This document shows positions 53,986-64,000 of a stretch of DNA of 64,000 bases, one piece after another (position 1 is the first letter of the stretch; each line of letters opens with the position of its first letter). The notes beneath the pieces were generated by a model. The model saw only the letters and a program-made list of their open reading frames with translations. It was not told the DNA's origin and made no database searches. Both the position numbers and the translations under genes were made by a program. Origin of the DNA: Desulfobotulus pelophilus. GTDB lineage: Bacteria; Desulfobacterota; Desulfobacteria; Desulfobacterales; ASO4-4. The stretch lies in assembly GCF_026155325.1 (NCBI RefSeq), contig NZ_JAPFPW010000010.1, positions 62,001 to 126,000 on the forward strand. The letters are read 5' to 3'.

Positions 53986-55257
53986 TTATGAAGAAGCACC
54001 GGAGACACGTGGAGTCAGGCCTTCCTGAGGCGTGCCCCCGGGGATCCTGCCCGGAGCTCTTGCAAATATGGCCACCAGCACACCAACAGAACAGGCAATA
54101 CCCGCCACAAGGAAAGCATTTTCAAAACCAATGGCTATGGAAAGCCTTGGCGCCGTAAGGGCGGCAACACCATAAAAAAGGAAAATGGCCCCATAATTAT
54201 TACCCACATTAGCAAGGCCAAACCATTCTGCCGTAAGCGTTGGCAGCATGGCGGCAAGCCCACCGAAACAAAAACCCACCACACAGGTCGCCACCAGGAA
54301 ACCTGCATAGGTCATAGGTATCAATGCCATGTAAAACATAGCCAGGCTCAGCAGCACAAAATTAGCAAGTATGGAAGGCTTTCTTCCATACTTGTCCGAT
54401 ATCCATCCCCACCCAAGACGACCACAGGCATTGAACAAAGCGATGGTCACAACAGCATTCCCTGCGGCAGCAAGACTTAATCCAAGCATGCTCATGCCGA
54501 TATTGGCAGCAACGCTGATGATCATCAAAGCAGCGGCACTGCCAAAAAACATCCAGACAACCAGCATATAAAACTGAGGAGTCCGCATAGCCTGAGCCGT
54601 TGAAAAACGACGGCTCCCAGCGGGGGCTGCCCCTCCCTTAACAACAGGAGGCGTCCAGCCGGGAGGCCTGTAACCTGCTGGAGGTACAGACAGAGCCATG
54701 GCACCCGTAACAATCAGAACGCCATAAATACACCCCAGATACAGGAAGGACTGGGACACCCCAAAGTTTTCTATAAAAATCAGAATAACAGGTTTGAATA
54801 CCATACCCCCCACCCCCAGAGCAGCCAGTATAAGCCCTGTTATCAAACCTCTTTTTTCCGGGAACCATTTCACGCAGGTAGCAAGGGGAGTAACATAGGC
54901 CGCACCAATTCCGATACCTGCAATCACACCATAGGTAAGGTACAGAAAATAAATATTGGTGGCAAAGCTGGCCAGCCCCACCCCAAGCCCCGTGAGAACA
55001 CCGCCGATAACGGCCACCTTACGTGGTCCAATCCTGTCCTGTATCCGACCAGCTATGATAACAGCCAGTGAAAAGCATGCCAGCGTAATCGAAAAAGTAA
55101 ACACTGTGTCCCCCGGCGTCCACCCATAGGCTTCCACCAGAGGTCTGTTGAAAAGGCTCCATGTGTAGATGGCACCGAGACTGAGCTGCATGAGGAGAGA
55201 GCCTCCCACCACAAGCCATCGGTTGACAACTTTTGTTTCCTGAGCGTTTGCTTCCAT
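53986..55257 (-). CDS. MFS transporter, oxalate/formate antiporter (OxlT) family
   Basis: 423 residues with 12 predicted helices. Family signs are NRWLVVGGSLLMQLSLGAIYTWSLFN, RIQDRIGPRKV, TPLATCVKWFPEKRGLITG, WGWISDKYGRKP and LPTLTAEWFGLANVGNNYG. OxlT-group carriers exchange or import small carboxylates (oxalate/formate, pyruvate or monocarboxylates). AAAGGGGGC lies upstream of the ATG. It follows the CoA-transferase gene on the same strand but is separated from it by two hairpins, so it may be transcribed partly by read-through. Import of the acid activated by that CoA-transferase is a fair inference. Confidence 0.88.
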   Translation of the reverse strand: MEANAQETKVVNRWLVVGGSLLMQLSLGAIYTWSLFNRPLVEAYGWTPGDTVFTFSITLACFSLAVIIAGRIQDRIGPRKVAVIGGVLTGLGVGLASFATNIYFLYLTYGVIAGIGIGAAYVTPLATCVKWFPEKRGLITGLILAALGVGGMVFKPVILIFIENFGVSQSFLYLGCIYGVLIVTGAMALSVPPAGYRPPGWTPPVVKGGAAPAGSRRFSTAQAMRTPQFYMLVVWMFFGSAAALMIISVAANIGMSMLGLSLAAAGNAVVTIALFNACGRLGWGWISDKYGRKPSILANFVLLSLAMFYMALIPMTYAGFLVATCVVGFCFGGLAAMLPTLTAEWFGLANVGNNYGAIFLFYGVAALTAPRLSIAIGFENAFLVAGIACSVGVLVAIFARAPGRIPGGTPQEGLTPRVSGASS

Positions 55258-55333: not shown

Positions 55334-55383
55334 CCGGAAATCCTCCCTCAGAGGAGAGATGGGGGGGGAGGAAGGATTTCCGG
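55334..55383 (-). terminator. Inverted repeat upstream of the OxlT-like gene
   Basis: CCGGAAATCC (55334-55343) pairs with GGATTTCCGG (55374-55383), with partial pairing further in. On the minus strand TTATTTT follows. Confidence 0.5.
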
Positions 55384-55393
55384 CAGGGGAGAG

Positions 55394-55423: not shown

Positions 55424-56794
55424 TCATACAGCCATGCGGATATCACGGGTCAAAACAGAAGGATGCAGCTTCCGCTTCCATATATTCATGCGTGACGCTT
55501 CCTGCATCAGTTCTTCCCTGTAATCGGGATGGGCAATGGCGATCAGCGCTTCCGCCCTCTCCCAGGTGCTCTTACCCTTGAGATTGGCCATACCGTGCTC
55601 CGTTACAACCCAGTGAGTCACCGTTCGGGGCAAAGTAACAATGGTACCGGGTTCCAGCGTAGGACGGATCCGACTCTTACGGTTTCCATTTTTATCCGTT
55701 GTTGTGGAACGCAGGCAGATAAAACTTTGCCCTCCTTCAGAATGATAACAGCCAAAGGCGAAATCAAACTGACCGCCCGTACCTGAAATCTGGCGAATAC
55801 CCGAAGATTCACTGGAAATCTGACCGTACAGATCCACTTCCACCGCATTATTGATGGAGACCGCCCTGGGGTTGGATGCAATACGGGCAGGTGCATTCAC
55901 ATAGTCCACTGGGAAACTGGCACAAAGGGAATTATGATGAATGAAATCATAAAGCCTTTGGGTTCCGAGGGCAAAGGTATAGGTCATTTTGCCCGGAAGA
56001 TCCCGCTTGAAACGCCCGGAGATACGACCGGCTTCATACATGTCAATATAGCTGTCCACAAGCATTTCCGTATGCACACCCAGATCCCGGATACCGGAAT
56101 CGGCGATGAGGCGGCCGATGGCATTGGGAAGCCCGCCAATTCCCAGTTGCAGGCAGGCTCCGTCGGGTATACGGGCCACGACATGTTCTGCTATTTTCAT
56201 GTCTTCTGCCGATACCGCCGGCTCCTTGAGACAAAACAGGGGAGAATTGTCCGATTCCACCACATAATCCACCTCGGAAATATGCAATGCTTCATCATAT
56301 CCACCCTGACATACCGGTATACTGGTATTGACCTCGACAATGACCGTACGGGCACTTTCCGCCTGAGCTCGCTGTATGGAGTTGGCGACTCCATAGTTGA
56401 AGAACCCATTTTTGTCCATGGGAGCACAGCGAACCATAAAAACGTCCGTTTCAATATCCCGCTCATAGTAACGGGGGCCTTCATGATAAAGAACGGGAAT
56501 GTAACTGCACAAACCCTTATCGTGAAGAATGCGGTCGCCACCCGTAAAATGCCAGTTATTATAGATAAAATGTTCACCGCCGGGGTCTGCCGTAGCCACG
56601 GCTGCAAGACCGGGGAAACCCACAGCCCGAACTTTCACCTCTTCCAGCTCCTCCGCCCTTCTCGCAAGGGCCGCATCCAGTGTCAGCGGAGCACATAAAA
56701 AATTTCCATAATCCACCCACTGGCCCGAACGAATCAGGGATACGGCTTTCTCAACGGAGACTTTTTTGGCATGATAAAGGGCCTGCACGTCCAT
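55424..56794 (-). CDS. Acetyl-CoA hydrolase/transferase family CoA-transferase
   Basis: 456 residues, full length. The family moves CoA between acetate (or acetyl-CoA) and C4-type acids, as in butyryl- or 4-hydroxybutyrate-CoA:acetate transferases. Seen are WVDYGNFLCAPLTLDAALA, the N-terminal domain GLAAVA and FIYNNWHF, the probable glutamyl-CoA-forming Glu in GVHTEMLVD, then GTGGQFDFAFG and VTEHGMANLKGKSTWERAEALIAIAHPDYR. The start at 56794 has AAAGGAGG upstream. A sigma-54 promoter and activator gene are adjacent, so it is an inducible catabolic gene. Acid specificity is not readable. A paralogue starts at 63340. Confidence 0.92.
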   Translation of the reverse strand: MDVQALYHAKKVSVEKAVSLIRSGQWVDYGNFLCAPLTLDAALARRAEELEEVKVRAVGFPGLAAVATADPGGEHFIYNNWHFTGGDRILHDKGLCSYIPVLYHEGPRYYERDIETDVFMVRCAPMDKNGFFNYGVANSIQRAQAESARTVIVEVNTSIPVCQGGYDEALHISEVDYVVESDNSPLFCLKEPAVSAEDMKIAEHVVARIPDGACLQLGIGGLPNAIGRLIADSGIRDLGVHTEMLVDSYIDMYEAGRISGRFKRDLPGKMTYTFALGTQRLYDFIHHNSLCASFPVDYVNAPARIASNPRAVSINNAVEVDLYGQISSESSGIRQISGTGGQFDFAFGCYHSEGGQSFICLRSTTTDKNGNRKSRIRPTLEPGTIVTLPRTVTHWVVTEHGMANLKGKSTWERAEALIAIAHPDYREELMQEASRMNIWKRKLHPSVLTRDIRMAV

Positions 56795-56850
56795 GATGAC
56801 CTCCTTTGGTTGGTGGTGCCCAAGCGGCATTCGACTATATGCCAACCATA

Positions 56851-56867
56851 TGCAAAACAGAGGCCAA
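56851..56867 (-). promoter_or_regulatory. Predicted sigma-54 (-24/-12) promoter of the CoA-transferase gene
   Basis: The minus strand reads TTGGCCTCTGTTTTGCA, a TGG...GC pair with the exact 10-base spacing and TTGCA at -12. The start would be near 56839, about 45 bases before the ATG. Confidence 0.75.
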
Positions 56868-56930: not shown

Positions 56931-56966
56931 GCAAAACCATACGACAAAAGTGCCGCATGGTTTTGC
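56931..56966. repeat. 16-bp-arm inverted repeat upstream of the sigma-54 promoter
   Basis: GCAAAACCATACGACA (56931-56946) and TGCCGCATGGTTTTGC (56951-56966) are complementary at 14 of 16 positions around AAAG. It contains operator copy 1 and lies about 92-127 bases upstream of the predicted start, the usual activator position. Confidence 0.65.
56940..56957. promoter_or_regulatory. Activator operator copy 1
   Basis: TACGACA-AAAG-TGCCGCA, an 18-bp imperfect dyad repeated at 57021 and 57042. Confidence 0.6.
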
Positions 56967-57020
56967 AAAAAATAAACACTGTTTACAAGCGCGCCCTGTG
57001 ATTGCGGCCGAGTTTGACGT

Positions 57021-57038
57021 TACGACATTAATGCCGTA
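57021..57038. promoter_or_regulatory. Activator operator copy 2
   Basis: TACGACA-TTAA-TGCCGTA, same half-sites and spacer length as copy 1; 21 bp from copy 3. Confidence 0.6.
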
Positions 57039-57041
57039 TGG

Positions 57042-57059
57042 TACGACACATACGCCGCA
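57042..57059. promoter_or_regulatory. Activator operator copy 3
   Basis: TACGACA-CATA-CGCCGCA, one base different in the second half-site. It ends directly at the stop codon of the activator gene. Confidence 0.5.
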
Positions 57060-58829
57060 CTATTCACCCCGCAGGTCATACCGCGCCATTTTACGCTCCA
57101 AAGTTCTTCGGTCAATTCCCAGCATTTCTGCCGTATGTCCCCGATGCCCCTTACAGCGCCTCAGAGTTTCCATAAGAATCTCCCGTTCACGCATAAACAG
57201 ACGCTCCTTGAGATTCTGTATCTCTCCAGGCCGCATTTCTCCATTTACATCCCCTTCTTCCATAAGGGGCAGATCCAGGCTTCCCAAAGTCACATAACGC
57301 TGGAGAACATTCTGAAGTTCACGCACATTCCCGGGCCACGTATATTTTGAAAAAGCTTCCATTATTCTGGCATCCAGTTTTGGCAACCCACCATCATGTT
57401 CCATGGCCGAAAGAAAATGCTCCACAAGAAGGGGAATGTCAGACGTTCTTTTTCGCAACGCTGGCAGATGAATGGGAATGATATGAAGCCGGTAGAAAAA
57501 ATCCTGACGCATCCGGCCTTCCGCAACCATACCCTCCATATTCCGGTGGGTTGCCGCGATGATACGGATATCCGTTCTGACATGTTCCCTTCCGCCCAGA
57601 GGTCTGAAACCATTTCCTTCCAAGGCCCTCAATAATTTTACCTGCATGGACAGAGGAATCTCGCCCACCTCATCCAGAAACAGTGTACCGCCGCCTGCCA
57701 TCTCGAGAAGCCCTTTTTTGTCTTCCGCAGCCCCGGTAAACGCGCCTTTTTTATAGCCAAAAAATTCACTTTCCATAAGGGTTTCCGGAATAGCACCGCA
57801 ATTTACAGGAACAAAAGGCTTATCCGCTCGCGGACTCAGGCCGTGGATAGCCTGCGCCACCAGCTCCTTTCCCGTACCCGACTCTCCGCGAATCACCACA
57901 GCCGCACCACTCCCCGCGGCCTGCAGAATACGATCGTAAACACACTGCATTTCAGGGCTTTTCCCTACAATACCGTGAAAGCGGTAACGATCCTTCATGC
58001 TGGATTTGAGTCGTTCATTCTCTTCCATCAGCAAGGCAGCCCGGGAACGCATGCGCTCCTCAGCCATCTTTCTTTCCGTAATATCCACCATAACGGTCTG
58101 GCGAAGCAGTACGGACCCGTCTTCACCACCAATCGGAGTAGTAACAATGCTGTACCAGCGTTCATCCAGAGGGTCAAGCCGCTCCACTTCCAGGGTTTTC
58201 CCTGAAAACACCTCATCATTTTCACACCAGAGGCAGGGCTCCGTCCGACCATACACCACCTCATAACAAGGTCCGGAGTTCGCATCCTTTCCCGTCCGCT
58301 CCCCAAGCGGCCCGTTGATATAGGCCAGACGATAGTCCCTGTGGCAGGTATAGAGAAAACCGGTAAAATGCTCCACAATGGCACGGAATTCGGCTTCCCG
58401 CTGGCGCAGGGTTTTCACAACTTCCTTTTCGGCAGTCACATTCACAAGGGTTGCCACGCTGGTCGTGGTGCCCCGTATCATATCCAGCTTAATCAGAATA
58501 TCATGGATCTGGCCATCCCTGTTCATAAGGCGACACTCATACTCACCGGGAGCTGCAGCAGGATCATTCCGGCGCAGATGGTGATAGCGCATCATCCTTT
58601 CAAGGTCCTCTTTCACGGCAAACCGAAGCCAGTCGATCTTACCTTCTATCTCTTCCTTCGAGTAACCAAGAAGCTCCTCGACCCTCTCATTGATACGGCT
58701 GATCGTATAATCTGCCTCTATGACAATGGTCGGTGCCGTCGATTTCTCAAAAATCATCCGATAAAAGCGGGCATCTTCTTCCGCTTTTTCCGCCCGTTCC
58801 TGCCAGACAACATTCTGACTGTCCTTCAT
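57060..58829 (-). CDS. Sigma-54-dependent activator with two PAS domains
   Basis: 589 residues. PAS 1 (about 20-130) opens FYRMIFEKSTAPTIVIEADYTI. PAS 2 (about 145-255) contains several Cys (CYEVVYGRTEPCLWC), which could sense redox or bind metal. The AAA+ domain (about 285-510) has GESGTGKE, an intact GAFTGA loop (YKKGAFTGAAEDKKG) and GTLFLDEVGEIP. The Fis-type HTH is GHRGHTAEMLGIDRRTLERKM. It should hydrolyse ATP to open the sigma-54 promoter at 56851, probably by binding the three dyads that follow its own stop. GAGGGGAG precedes the ATG. yqaA lies 107 bases upstream on the same strand. Confidence 0.92.
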   Translation of the reverse strand: MKDSQNVVWQERAEKAEEDARFYRMIFEKSTAPTIVIEADYTISRINERVEELLGYSKEEIEGKIDWLRFAVKEDLERMMRYHHLRRNDPAAAPGEYECRLMNRDGQIHDILIKLDMIRGTTTSVATLVNVTAEKEVVKTLRQREAEFRAIVEHFTGFLYTCHRDYRLAYINGPLGERTGKDANSGPCYEVVYGRTEPCLWCENDEVFSGKTLEVERLDPLDERWYSIVTTPIGGEDGSVLLRQTVMVDITERKMAEERMRSRAALLMEENERLKSSMKDRYRFHGIVGKSPEMQCVYDRILQAAGSGAAVVIRGESGTGKELVAQAIHGLSPRADKPFVPVNCGAIPETLMESEFFGYKKGAFTGAAEDKKGLLEMAGGGTLFLDEVGEIPLSMQVKLLRALEGNGFRPLGGREHVRTDIRIIAATHRNMEGMVAEGRMRQDFFYRLHIIPIHLPALRKRTSDIPLLVEHFLSAMEHDGGLPKLDARIMEAFSKYTWPGNVRELQNVLQRYVTLGSLDLPLMEEGDVNGEMRPGEIQNLKERLFMREREILMETLRRCKGHRGHTAEMLGIDRRTLERKMARYDLRGE

Positions 58830-59659: not shown

Positions 59660-60808
59660 ATGGAGTCCCTGGAAGAGTTTATAGCAACAACCATTGATGT
59701 ATGGAACAATGGATTCATGGGTATTCCCATAGCGCGGTATCTTGCAGCGGCCAGCATCCTGCTCTTTTTTCTCATGCTCAGACGTACGGTGGTTCAGTGG
59801 TCCCTCAATTATCTGAAAAAATTAAGCGGCAAAACATCTACCCGACTTGACGATGAAATTGTTGCTTCCCTTGAGCCTCCCATAAGGCTGCTCCCTATCA
59901 TCCTTGGCATATTTTTGGGACTGCGCTTTCTTCAACTGGAGGGATCAGCCGCCCTCTTTTCTGAAAAATTCGTACGATCCATGATTGCCTTCATGATTTT
60001 CTGGGCACTTCTCTCCGCCGTCCCTCCCATTTTCAGACTGATGGACCATGTCAAAGCCCATGTGGGAGCCGCCCTTCTTGACTGGGCTCACAAAGCCGTA
60101 AAAGTCGCCATCGTTGTCATAGGAGCGGCTACCATACTGGATATGTGGGGCATTAAAGTCGGCCCCATTCTGGCGGGCTTTGGTCTTTTTGGCATTGCCG
60201 TTGCCCTGGGAGCTCAGGATCTGTTTAAAAACCTCATATCAGGCATTCTCATTCTGACCGAACGCCGCTTCGGTATAGGCGACTGGGTACATGTGGAGGG
60301 TGTAGTGGAAGGAACGGTGGAAGAAATCGGCTTCCGGTCAACCCGGATCCGTCGTTTCGACAAAGCACCGGTCTTTGTCCCCAATGCAAGACTTTCCGAT
60401 AATACACTCACCAATTATTCATCCATGACCCACCGGAGAATTTTCTGGACCATCGGTCTTGAATACCGCACCACCCTTGAAAGCCTTCGCAGAATACGGG
60501 ATCGGATCGAAGCCCATCTTCTTGAGAATAAAGCCTTTGTCAATCCACCGGAAGTTCCTCTTTTTGTCCGCATAGACCGTTTTTCCGATTCTTCCATCGA
60601 CATTATGATCTACTGTTTTACCCGCACAACCTTGTGGGGTGAATGGCTGGTCGCCAAAGAGTCTCTTGCCCTTGAAATTAAAGCCATTGTGGAACAGGAG
60701 GGAGCCTCATTTGCCTTCCCGAGCCGGTCTCTTTACTTCGAAAACATGCCGGATACGGAACAGGCACAGGTCTTTATTCCACCCGCTTACCAGGAAAAAA
60801 CCCTATGA
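59660..60808 (+). CDS. MscS-family mechanosensitive ion channel
   Basis: 382 residues. Several N-terminal helices precede the pore helix and beta domain. The conserved MscS stretch is LAGFGLFGIAVALGAQDLFKNLISGILILTERRFGIGDWV in segments, followed by GTVEEIGFRSTRIRRFD and VPNARLSDNTLTNYS. Such channels open under membrane tension and release small solutes. GGAGG just upstream fixes the start at 59660, although the frame is open earlier. The stop overlaps the start of the next sigma-54 activator by four bases, so channel and regulator are translationally coupled. Confidence 0.9.
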   Translation: MESLEEFIATTIDVWNNGFMGIPIARYLAAASILLFFLMLRRTVVQWSLNYLKKLSGKTSTRLDDEIVASLEPPIRLLPIILGIFLGLRFLQLEGSAALFSEKFVRSMIAFMIFWALLSAVPPIFRLMDHVKAHVGAALLDWAHKAVKVAIVVIGAATILDMWGIKVGPILAGFGLFGIAVALGAQDLFKNLISGILILTERRFGIGDWVHVEGVVEGTVEEIGFRSTRIRRFDKAPVFVPNARLSDNTLTNYSSMTHRRIFWTIGLEYRTTLESLRRIRDRIEAHLLENKAFVNPPEVPLFVRIDRFSDSSIDIMIYCFTRTTLWGEWLVAKESLALEIKAIVEQEGASFAFPSRSLYFENMPDTEQAQVFIPPAYQEKTL

Positions 60809-62865
60809 TGCCACTCTGTCATCAGCTTCTTCAGCTGGCCGAAAGGGCAAGACAACTCCATGGTTTTCTTTCTGCCTCAGAACAATGCATAGGAGGGAAC
60901 CTTGATCTTGATTATGTGATGATCAGACCATCCGTCCCGTTGGCCGAAAAAGTTTCTGTCAATGAATCCAGACCCACGGCCCGCTTTCCCATGGCGCACA
61001 CCCAGACTGTTCCGGAAGGCCCCCTTTTCATGGATGTACCCGGTGATAACGGGATCGCTCCAGAGATACTGCAGCAGATCGCCGATATGACCGGACGTAT
61101 TGCTCAGGTTCTGCACAGAAATATTTCCACCTATGAACACCTTCGCATGTATAAAACCGTTTTTGAAACAACGGGGACGGGTACTATCATCATTGAACAG
61201 GACATGACCATCACCTGTGCCAATGCAAGATTCCAGGAAATGACAGGATACACCCGGGAAGAAATCCATGGAAAAAAACGATGGTCTGAGTTCATTGTTC
61301 CCGAAGACCGGGACCGCATGCAACAATACCATTACGGACGACGAAAACCGGGGAATAAGGTTCCTACGGAATATGAATGTCGAATTACAGACCGTCATGG
61401 TCGCATCATGGACATTTACATGAAAGTAGGGGTTATTCCCGAAACCCAGAGAAGCATTGCCTCCTTTCTGGATATCACCACACGGAAACAGGCAGAGAAC
61501 TCCCTGCGCCAGCGGGAATCCCAGCTGAACGCCATCATCGAAAACTTTGAGGGCTTTATTTTTATCTATACCCGGGATCTGCGGGTACGGTACATGAACC
61601 GGCTCCTGACCGAACGTATAGGCATGGATGCAACGGGAGCTCTCTGTGAAGACGCCCTGCCGGGCCTGGAGAGTCTGTTTACCTTACCCGTAAGGGAAAG
61701 GGTCTTCAGCGGAGAGACCCTTCGCATGGAAATTGAATGCACCCCCACCAGCCAGTGGTTTTATGCGGTCAGCTCCCCTATTTTTGACAGCAGCGGATTC
61801 GTGGATCGCATTCAGGTCATGCTGATTGATGTCACCCTCAGCAAAATGGCAGAAGCCGCCCTGAAAGAAAGGGAAGCAACGCTTCAAAAGGAGAACAAGC
61901 TCTTACGCTCCGGCCTGAGGGACAGGTACAAGTTCGGCAACATCATAGGCAAAAGCCCGAAAATGCAAGATGTTTATGACCTTATACTAAAAGCTGCCGC
62001 CTCCAGCGCCAATGTCATCATTCTTGGAGAATCCGGTACGGGTAAAGAACTGGTGGCACAGGCCATTCATCAGCTCAGTTCAAGAAAGGACAAGGCCTTT
62101 GTGGTTGTCAATTGCGGAGCCATTCCCGAAAATCTCATGGAAAGTGAATTTTTCGGCCATGTCAGGGGCGCATTTACCGGCGCTGTGACAGATAAAAAAG
62201 GCTACATGGATATGGCGGACGGAGGCACTCTTTTTCTGGATGAAATCGGCGAACTACCCCTTTCTTTACAGGTAAAGCTTCTCCGCGCCCTGGAAGGAGG
62301 CGGCTATACACCCGTTGGCATGTCCACCCGTAAAGATAGCGATGTACGCATACTGGCCGCTACCAACAGGGATCTGAGGGATCATGTTCGCAAAAATCTG
62401 ATGCGGGAAGATTTTTTTTATCGCATTCACATCATCCCCATCCTTCTCCCCCCCCTGCGTAAAAGACTGGAAGATATTCCTCTTCTCATTGATCATTTTG
62501 TTAAAGAATTCGACACCCAAACTCCGCCCCCCCCTATTTCCGCACGGCTCATGGAAGCTTTTTCCAACTATAGCTGGCCAGGTAATGTCCGCGAACTTCA
62601 AAACACACTCCATCGCTATCTCACCCTTGGTAAAATCGACTTTCCAGGAACGGACCAAACCGGCTCAACCTCTGGTGCCGACCAGGATATGTCCGAAAAA
62701 AACGAAAATAACCAAGACCTTAAAGAGGCAATGGATAATTTTGAACGCGCCCTTCTTCTGCAAACTCTCAAAGAACAGCACTGGCACAAAGGACGTACGG
62801 CAGAAGTGCTGGGTATCCACAGAAAAACACTTTTCACCAAACTTCGCCAACATGGCATCGGCTAA
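60805..62865 (+). CDS. Sigma-54-dependent activator with two PAS domains and an extra N-terminal region
   Basis: 686 residues, about 100 longer at the N terminus than its paralogue at 57060. Residues 1-105 show no family I recognise (two Cys early, then a Pro-rich stretch and a helix ending RNISTYEHL). PAS 1 is about 110-220, PAS 2 about 230-350. The AAA+ domain has GESGTGKE, intact GAFTGA (VRGAFTGAVTDKKG) and GTLFLDEIGELP. The Fis-type HTH is HKGRTAEVLGIHRKTLFTKL. Recognition-helix residues differ from the paralogue, so its operator should differ. ATGATG overlaps the mscS stop; either ATG (60805 or 60808) may start. It presumably drives the sigma-54 promoter at 63227. Confidence 0.9.
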   Translation: MMPLCHQLLQLAERARQLHGFLSASEQCIGGNLDLDYVMIRPSVPLAEKVSVNESRPTARFPMAHTQTVPEGPLFMDVPGDNGIAPEILQQIADMTGRIAQVLHRNISTYEHLRMYKTVFETTGTGTIIIEQDMTITCANARFQEMTGYTREEIHGKKRWSEFIVPEDRDRMQQYHYGRRKPGNKVPTEYECRITDRHGRIMDIYMKVGVIPETQRSIASFLDITTRKQAENSLRQRESQLNAIIENFEGFIFIYTRDLRVRYMNRLLTERIGMDATGALCEDALPGLESLFTLPVRERVFSGETLRMEIECTPTSQWFYAVSSPIFDSSGFVDRIQVMLIDVTLSKMAEAALKEREATLQKENKLLRSGLRDRYKFGNIIGKSPKMQDVYDLILKAAASSANVIILGESGTGKELVAQAIHQLSSRKDKAFVVVNCGAIPENLMESEFFGHVRGAFTGAVTDKKGYMDMADGGTLFLDEIGELPLSLQVKLLRALEGGGYTPVGMSTRKDSDVRILAATNRDLRDHVRKNLMREDFFYRIHIIPILLPPLRKRLEDIPLLIDHFVKEFDTQTPPPPISARLMEAFSNYSWPGNVRELQNTLHRYLTLGKIDFPGTDQTGSTSGADQDMSEKNENNQDLKEAMDNFERALLLQTLKEQHWHKGRTAEVLGIHRKTLFTKLRQHGIG

Positions 62866-62997
62866 AAAGGTGAGGAGCCTGCCCGATTTGGGGCGTTAAG
62901 ACCCCAACACTTCATGGAACACTGTTTTTACATGTTTTATCTCGTTCCCTTCGCCAAACATGTGGTAGAAACACCTCAATATTTTCACCCTTCCAAC

Positions 62998-63037
62998 TCC
63001 CCGGCTACCTTTTCCCCCTCCTATTCCGGGGATTTTT
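62998..63037 (+). terminator. Rho-independent terminator after the second sigma-54 activator
   Basis: TCCCCGG (62998-63004) pairs with CCGGGGA (63026-63032), followed by TTTTT. The loop of 21 bases is long. Confidence 0.5.
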
Positions 63038-63226
63038 CATTCTTCAGAGCAGGATCAGAAAACAGTTCCTGCCCCCCCACATGAAAAAGAAGCAAAAACC
63101 AATACAAACACATGTAATTCAAAGAAAAACATCCATACAAAAACGATAAAAAGCCAGCCAGCACCCTAAGAATCCGGTTCCATAACAACGACAAAAAACA
63201 GCTTTTTTCCTCCTCTACCAAAAACA

Positions 63227-63242
63227 TGGCACAATTTTAGCA
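63227..63242 (+). promoter_or_regulatory. Predicted sigma-54 (-24/-12) promoter of the second CoA-transferase gene
   Basis: TGGCACAATTTTAGCA has a consensus -24 element TGGCAC and a GC at exactly 10 bases (TAGC for TTGC). The start would be near 63254, about 85 bases before the ATG. Confidence 0.7.
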
Positions 63243-63339
63243 TCCTATCATACACATACCTGCGCAACTTATGAACAAAGTGCGCAAAGCCCGGTAGCCG
63301 GAAAACCAGCCCCCTTCCCCAGACCATCAAGGAGGATAC

Positions 63340-64000
63340 ATGAGCTCTTATCAGGAAGCTTACAGCAAAAAAATGCGCCGCCCGGAAGAGGCTGTGCGAC
63401 ACATTCAGTCCGGAGACTGGGTTGATTACGGTAACTTTGCCTGTGCCCCCCTGACGCTGGATGCCGCTCTGGCCGAGCGTGTCGGTGAGCTGGAGAATGT
63501 CAAGGTAAGAGCCATGACATTCCCCGGTCTTGCCGCCGTTGCCAAAGCCGATCCCACGGCTACCCGATTCATTTACAACAACTGGCATTTTTCCGGTGGT
63601 GACCGTAAACTCCATGATGCCGGCAACTGCTTTTATGTCCCCTTCCTTTTTCATGAAGGTCCGGGCTACTATGACATCATTGATTCCGATGTTTTCTGCG
63701 TTGCCGTTGCTCCCATGGATTCCAGGGGATATTTCAATTTCGGCTCCTCCAACTCCATACAGATGGCCGTGGCGCGGAGAGCCAAAAAAGTTATTGTGGA
63801 AATCAACCGCAGCATCCCCCACTGTTACGGTGGATTCAACGAGGGTATCCATATTGATCAGGTAGACATGATAGTGGAATCCGATCACAGACCCCTTTTC
63901 CAGCTGCCCTCCACCAATCCGTCAGAGATTGACACCCGCATAGCAGGGCTGATCATGGAAGATATTCAGGATGGCTCCTGCATTCAGCTGGGTATTGGGG
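63340..64000 (+). CDS. Acetyl-CoA hydrolase/transferase family CoA-transferase, N-terminal part (cut by window edge)
   Basis: 220 residues are visible, and the frame runs off the window edge. Start at 63340 has AAGGAGG five bases upstream. WVDYGNFACAPLTLDAALAE, FIYNNWHFSGGDRKLHDAG and VIVEINRSIPHCYGGFNEGIHIDQVDMIVESD align without gaps to the enzyme at 55424, so the two are clear paralogues with many substitutions. The catalytic Glu lies beyond the edge. Behind a sigma-54 promoter and downstream of its own activator. Role as for the paralogue; a different acid substrate is likely (inference). Confidence 0.9.
   Translation, partial: MSSYQEAYSKKMRRPEEAVRHIQSGDWVDYGNFACAPLTLDAALAERVGELENVKVRAMTFPGLAAVAKADPTATRFIYNNWHFSGGDRKLHDAGNCFYVPFLFHEGPGYYDIIDSDVFCVAVAPMDSRGYFNFGSSNSIQMAVARRAKKVIVEINRSIPHCYGGFNEGIHIDQVDMIVESDHRPLFQLPSTNPSEIDTRIAGLIMEDIQDGSCIQLGIG

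Follow-up and report, generated by a model that had tools for sequence, protein, structure and literature searches.

Which protein acts on the three short dyads that lie between a sigma-54 activator gene and the promoter of a CoA-transferase gene in Desulfobotulus pelophilus? Our analysis suggests that the dyads very probably form the upstream activating sequence (UAS, or enhancer) of the adjoining activator, which would act through them on the CoA-transferase promoter.

The window, i.e., the whole stretch of 64,000 nucleotides that was analysed, contains the activator gene at 57060–58829 on the minus strand (stop codon at 57060–57062), transcribed toward the promoter. The encoded protein of 589 amino acids combines PAS, AAA+ and Fis-type helix-turn-helix (HTH) domains. 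Its AAA+ domain belongs to the sigma-54 interaction family PF00158 (223.8 bits), with the motif GAFTGA in the translation, and its C-terminal Fis-type HTH (HTH_8, residues 547–584) belongs to PF02954 (48.5 bits). The HTH_8 match and an alignment with Fis locate the recognition-helix stretch RRTLERK at residues 574–580 (57090–57110, minus strand). The −24/−12 promoter that had been predicted downstream of the dyads was found at 56851–56866 on the minus strand as a GG-N10-GC element, TGGCCTCTGTTTTGCA, with an equivalent element in each ortholog. Transcription would be expected to start near 56840.

The presumed target, at 55424–56794 on the minus strand, encodes an acyl-CoA/acetate-type CoA-transferase of 456 amino acids. 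It can be assigned to the domain families PF02550/PF13336 only, as its score against the butyryl-CoA:acetate CoA-transferase model TIGR03948 (534.1 bits) falls below the equivalog cut-off of 674.8. The next gene downstream, at 53986–55257 on the minus strand, encodes an MFS monocarboxylate (lactate-type) transporter (NF049980, 430 bits against a cut-off of 320), and this gene order is kept in both congeners. An inverted repeat between these two genes, CCGGAAATCC...GGATTTCCGG at 55336–55385, is probably a terminator or attenuator. In the congener loci L017 and L018, the 5′ untranslated region of the CoA-transferase gene contains a small hairpin directly before the ribosome-binding site (CCGCC-AGAA-GGCGG; in L017 CCGTC-AGAA-GGCGG), a form that is not kept in the window.

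All three dyads are 18-bp quasi-palindromes between the activator stop codon and the −24/−12 element, on the minus strand. Dyad 1, nearest to the promoter, spans 56940–56957 (TACGACAAAAGTGCCGCA) and reads TGCGGCA-CTTT-TGTCGTA on the operon strand (TGCGGCACTTTTGTCGTA, 56957–56940). Dyad 2 spans 57021–57038 (TACGACATTAATGCCGTA; operon strand TACGGCA-TTAA-TGTCGTA, TACGGCATTAATGTCGTA, 57038–57021). Dyad 3, at 57042–57059 (TACGACACATACGCCGCA; operon strand TGCGGCG-TATG-TGTCGTA, TGCGGCGTATGTGTCGTA, 57059–57042), abuts the activator stop codon. In line with the original prediction, the copies start at 56940, 57021 and 57042, the left half-site is identical in them, the spacer is 4 bp in all three, and a distance of 21 bp separates copy 2 from copy 3. 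The predicted right half-site, TGCCGYA, does not hold for copy 3, which has one mismatch (CGCCGCA). The pattern TRCGRCA-N4-TGYCGYA fits the site more closely than the earlier TACGACA-N4-TGCCGYA. The dyad centres lie 84, 165 and 186 bp upstream of the GG of the −24/−12 element. This is the arrangement of a UAS, with repeated dyads ~80–200 bp upstream of a −24/−12 promoter, and it is kept in six loci. A search by eye for the IHF consensus between the dyads gave no convincing match. The palindrome GTAAACAGTGTTTAT, at 56972–56986 between dyads 1 and 2, is kept in both congeners and has one other exact copy in the genome (G000:C22:46747-46761); perhaps it is a site for a second regulator.

Short and imperfect repeats such as these might in principle be chance repeats or leftovers of duplication, and matches to the relaxed pattern TACGRCAN4YGYCGYA indeed abound genome-wide once two mismatches are allowed. 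Yet the triple-dyad score of 36 out of 42 at the window locus was reached in none of 200 dinucleotide shuffles (maximum 33), and none of 200 shuffles matched the observed score in any of the six orthologous loci. A genome-wide scan, which had been proposed as a check on the prediction, found exact matches to the relaxed pattern at these three places only in the whole 3.66-Mb genome, rather than scattered across it. Given also that place, spacing and letters are conserved across families, which already contradicts a chance origin, we consider this explanation as good as negligible.

The same scan bears on the reach of the regulator. A wider regulon was considered and rejected: the genome holds no other exact site, and the 1-mismatch matches elsewhere lie within long open frames. 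Exact matches are likewise confined to the activator locus in the congeners G001 and G002 and in G146, while G184 has one exact dyad off the activator locus (TGCGGCATGGATGCCGCA, G184:C25:569355-569372). The activator therefore appears to be a local regulator with one target. Autoregulation was rejected too, as a scan of the window found no dyad upstream of the activator gene itself.

Conservation supports the proposed link between the dyads and the activator at 57060. We compared six orthologous loci, from the window, the congeners G001 (Desulfobotulus alkaliphilus) and G002, and three genomes from two other families (G022; G146 and G184). G001 was identified by a named contig, which matches it at 100% and the window's genome at 91%. 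In the five loci other than that of the window, an orthologous activator gene, likewise encoding the stretch RRTLERK, immediately precedes this CoA-transferase gene, and in all six loci three dyads and a sigma-54 element occupy the same places between the two genes. The outer pair of dyads is exactly 21 bp apart in six of six loci, and the third dyad follows 40 to 84 bp beyond it. Relative to the stop codon, the outer pair starts at +3/+24 in the window, and the other five pairs start at −7/+14, −7/+14, +5/+26, −6/+15 and −6/+15. Both congeners have an outermost dyad that overlaps the activator stop codon. Across the three Desulfobotulus sequences, 80% of the columns in the dyad arms are invariant, compared to 25% in the dyad spacers and 47% in the rest. 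A more distant ortholog with the recognition stretch RKTLERRM (G011) retains right half-sites, TGTCGYA, only.

Further support comes from covariation: among 82 related activators, the letters of the half-site vary with the recognition helix. Approximately 120 related activator loci were gathered, mostly from the same order, of which 82 were scored. Motif finding assumed a dyad of constant 7-4-7 layout downstream of the activator stop codon and a local background, which repaired the AT-rich artefacts that a flat background produced in AT-rich loci. It yielded one half-site per recognition-helix class: T[GA]CG[AG]CA (TRCGRCA) for RRTLERK, [TC][GA]CGCCA (YRCGCCA) for LRTLQRK, TGTGGCG for RKTLFTK, TGGG[AG]NC for RRTLFKK, TG[GA]GAAC for RRTLYKK and TGAGT[CT]A for RKTLYLK. 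In a leave-one-out assignment, for which the held-out locus had contributed to the starting motifs but not to the refined ones, the motif class equalled the locus' own helix class in 70 of 82 loci, compared to at most 30 after shuffling of labels (n = 5000). Among loci with strong sites, 60 of 62 were assigned to their own class. Eight of the 29 RKTLFTK loci were misassigned and showed no sites of their own class.

Base 3 of the half-site tracks the residue before the final lysine: an R there is paired with C in 62 of 74 half-sites, a T with T in 68 of 76, a K with G in 47 of 62 and an L with A in 32 of 48. The first residue of the recognition stretch aligns with Arg85 of Fis, which has a homologous HTH; Arg85, with which the Fis recognition helix begins, contacts an outer G and prefers a T beside it (PMC4784862). 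The T-G start of the half-site, common to all classes, is in keeping with such a contact. Fis differs in that it reads mainly DNA shape over a 15-bp core (PMC4784862), whereas most half-site letters are specific here. The idea that each helix class arose independently was rejected: in an AAA+ domain tree the classes are largely clades, with 17 changes in all, and hence few independent changes underlie the covariation. Because of this clade structure and the eight misassigned RKTLFTK loci, we put forward the residue-to-base rule for half-site letters as a hypothesis. The prediction that the dyads are recognised by the activator encoded next to them has good support.

Could another regulator bind the dyads instead? 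One candidate is the paralogous activator encoded at 60805–62865, which has the same architecture and also adjoins a CoA-transferase gene. However, its recognition stretch RKTLFTK belongs to a class paired with TGTGGC sites, and it has candidate dyads of its own at 62889 and 62961, with the same offsets in D. alkaliphilus. TRCGRCA dyads, moreover, accompany RRTLERK activators in other families. Binding by the paralogue or another such regulator thus seems highly improbable. In the paralogue region (60805–64000), the candidate dyads at 62889–62906 and 62961–62978 are followed by a sigma-54 element at 63227–63242 and a second CoA-transferase gene with its ATG at 63340, and the dyad and promoter offsets recur in D. 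alkaliphilus (L033).

Dyad 1 differs from the other two in its surroundings. It sits at the apex of a 16-bp hairpin, made by the inverted repeat GCAAAACCA-[dyad 1]-TGGTTTTGC at 56931–56966 on the minus strand, which is probably the terminator of the activator gene. The hairpin has the stability of an intrinsic terminator in all three species: the RNA folds at −24.7 kcal/mol in the window (z −6.6), and the congener hairpins, which also contain dyad 1, are of equal or greater stability (−35.0, z −9.3; −25.2, z −6.4). A T-run behind it is clear in the two congeners and weak in the window, where TGTTTATG follows the full stem. With a manually chosen flank register that starts at the dyad and runs outward, and allowing one unpaired A in G002, all nine flank pairs are kept between each two of the three species, six of them through changes on both sides. 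Unlike the flanks, the dyad core has no both-sided changes. Among 69 dyad-bearing activators, 13 terminator-like hairpins were found behind the gene, of which 10 contain a dyad, and the combination also occurs in the separate RKTLFTK class. In four RKTLFTK activator loci of another family (L131, L132, L139 and L164), the second TGTGGC dyad also lies within a terminator-like hairpin.

These hairpins raise the possibility that the dyads are RNA elements, i.e., terminators or attenuators behind the activator gene, rather than protein-binding sites. The stable hairpin topped by dyad 1 and the T-runs behind it in the congeners would fit, as would the mismatches within the dyads, most of which read as G-U pairs in the operon strand. 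But dyads 2 and 3 lack such flanks, and the letters of the dyads stay constant between species and between families and track the recognition helix of the protein, while the hairpin flanks change with pairing kept. The fixed core letters amid covarying flanks indicate that the core is constrained by sequence and the flanks by pairing, which led us to reject a pure RNA element; we regard it as very unlikely. Our preferred reading remains that of an enhancer, in which the proximal site would serve a second time, as the core of the terminator of the activator gene.

Repeated dyads of this kind are well known from other sigma-54 systems. The UAS motifs described for Desulfovibrio vulgaris (PMC4641369) and for the Clostridiales (PMC6615313) are inverted repeats that lie close to the activator gene and precede sigma-54 promoters, with small regulons, as at our locus. 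Many of these motifs are of the form TGT-N10-12-ACA, and TGT-N12-ACA has the same 18-bp length as the dyads studied here; length alone fits, as the outer letters of the dyads are TRC and GYA. The target also differs, being a CoA-transferase gene in Desulfobacterales. According to the passages compared, motif similarity does not always track the DNA-binding domain in Desulfovibrio (PMC4641369) and is consistent with it in Clostridiales (PMC6615313); these passages give no residue-level rule. The enhancer sites of NtrC (TGCACC(A/T)4TGGTGCA) are likewise palindromes starting with TGC that are bound by a Fis-type HTH dimer, in pairs upstream of a sigma-54 promoter (PMC4987338). However, they have the half-site TGCACC and a length of 17 bp instead of TRCGRCA and 18 bp, and NtrC is a response regulator whereas the activator here has a PAS sensor (PMC4987338). 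The hairpin around dyad 1 is comparable in principle with DNA-uptake-signal terminators, where a protein-recognised DNA word also occurs within the stem of an intrinsic terminator (PMC1852404). Those words are genome-wide repeats for DNA uptake (PMC1852404), whereas here a single enhancer site is involved.

From established knowledge of sigma-54 activators we infer binding, looping and a signal, as follows. Dimers of the Fis-type domain would bind the TRCGRCA-N4-TGYCGYA sites. The 21-bp pair, two helical turns apart on one face of the DNA, and the third site ~80 bp nearer to the promoter would gather the activator and favour assembly of the AAA+ oligomer. Through looping of the DNA, the AAA+ ring could then reach the sigma-54 polymerase at 56851–56866 and, upon a signal sensed by the PAS domains, open the promoter of the CoA-transferase gene. 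The hairpin with the proximal site at its top probably ends the activator transcript, which would shield the operon from read-through.

Tentatively, our results may be joined in a wider reading, which we consider possible rather than probable. PAS-type sigma-54 activators of Desulfobacterales would share a fixed 18-bp (7-4-7) site, the half-site letters of which are set nearly one-to-one by the stretch xxTLxxK (R-C, T-T, K-G and L-A at base 3), and the enhancer would lie right behind the activator's own gene, in several lineages inside its terminator hairpin.

The arrangement of the predicted enhancer dyads is ordinary (PMC4641369, PMC6615313), with its own letters and target being new. The tidy helix-to-site correspondence and the overlap of enhancer and terminator are less usual features, and in a limited literature search we found no paper stating either of them. 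Our analysis assigns a confidently predicted site and target to an uncharacterised activator, which probably controls how a sulfate reducer activates carboxylic acids. From the wider comparison comes a possible rule, open to experimental test, for the choice of sites by the Fis-type domains of sigma-54 activators. If true, the overlap of enhancer and terminator would combine insulation and activation compactly, within ~200 bp.
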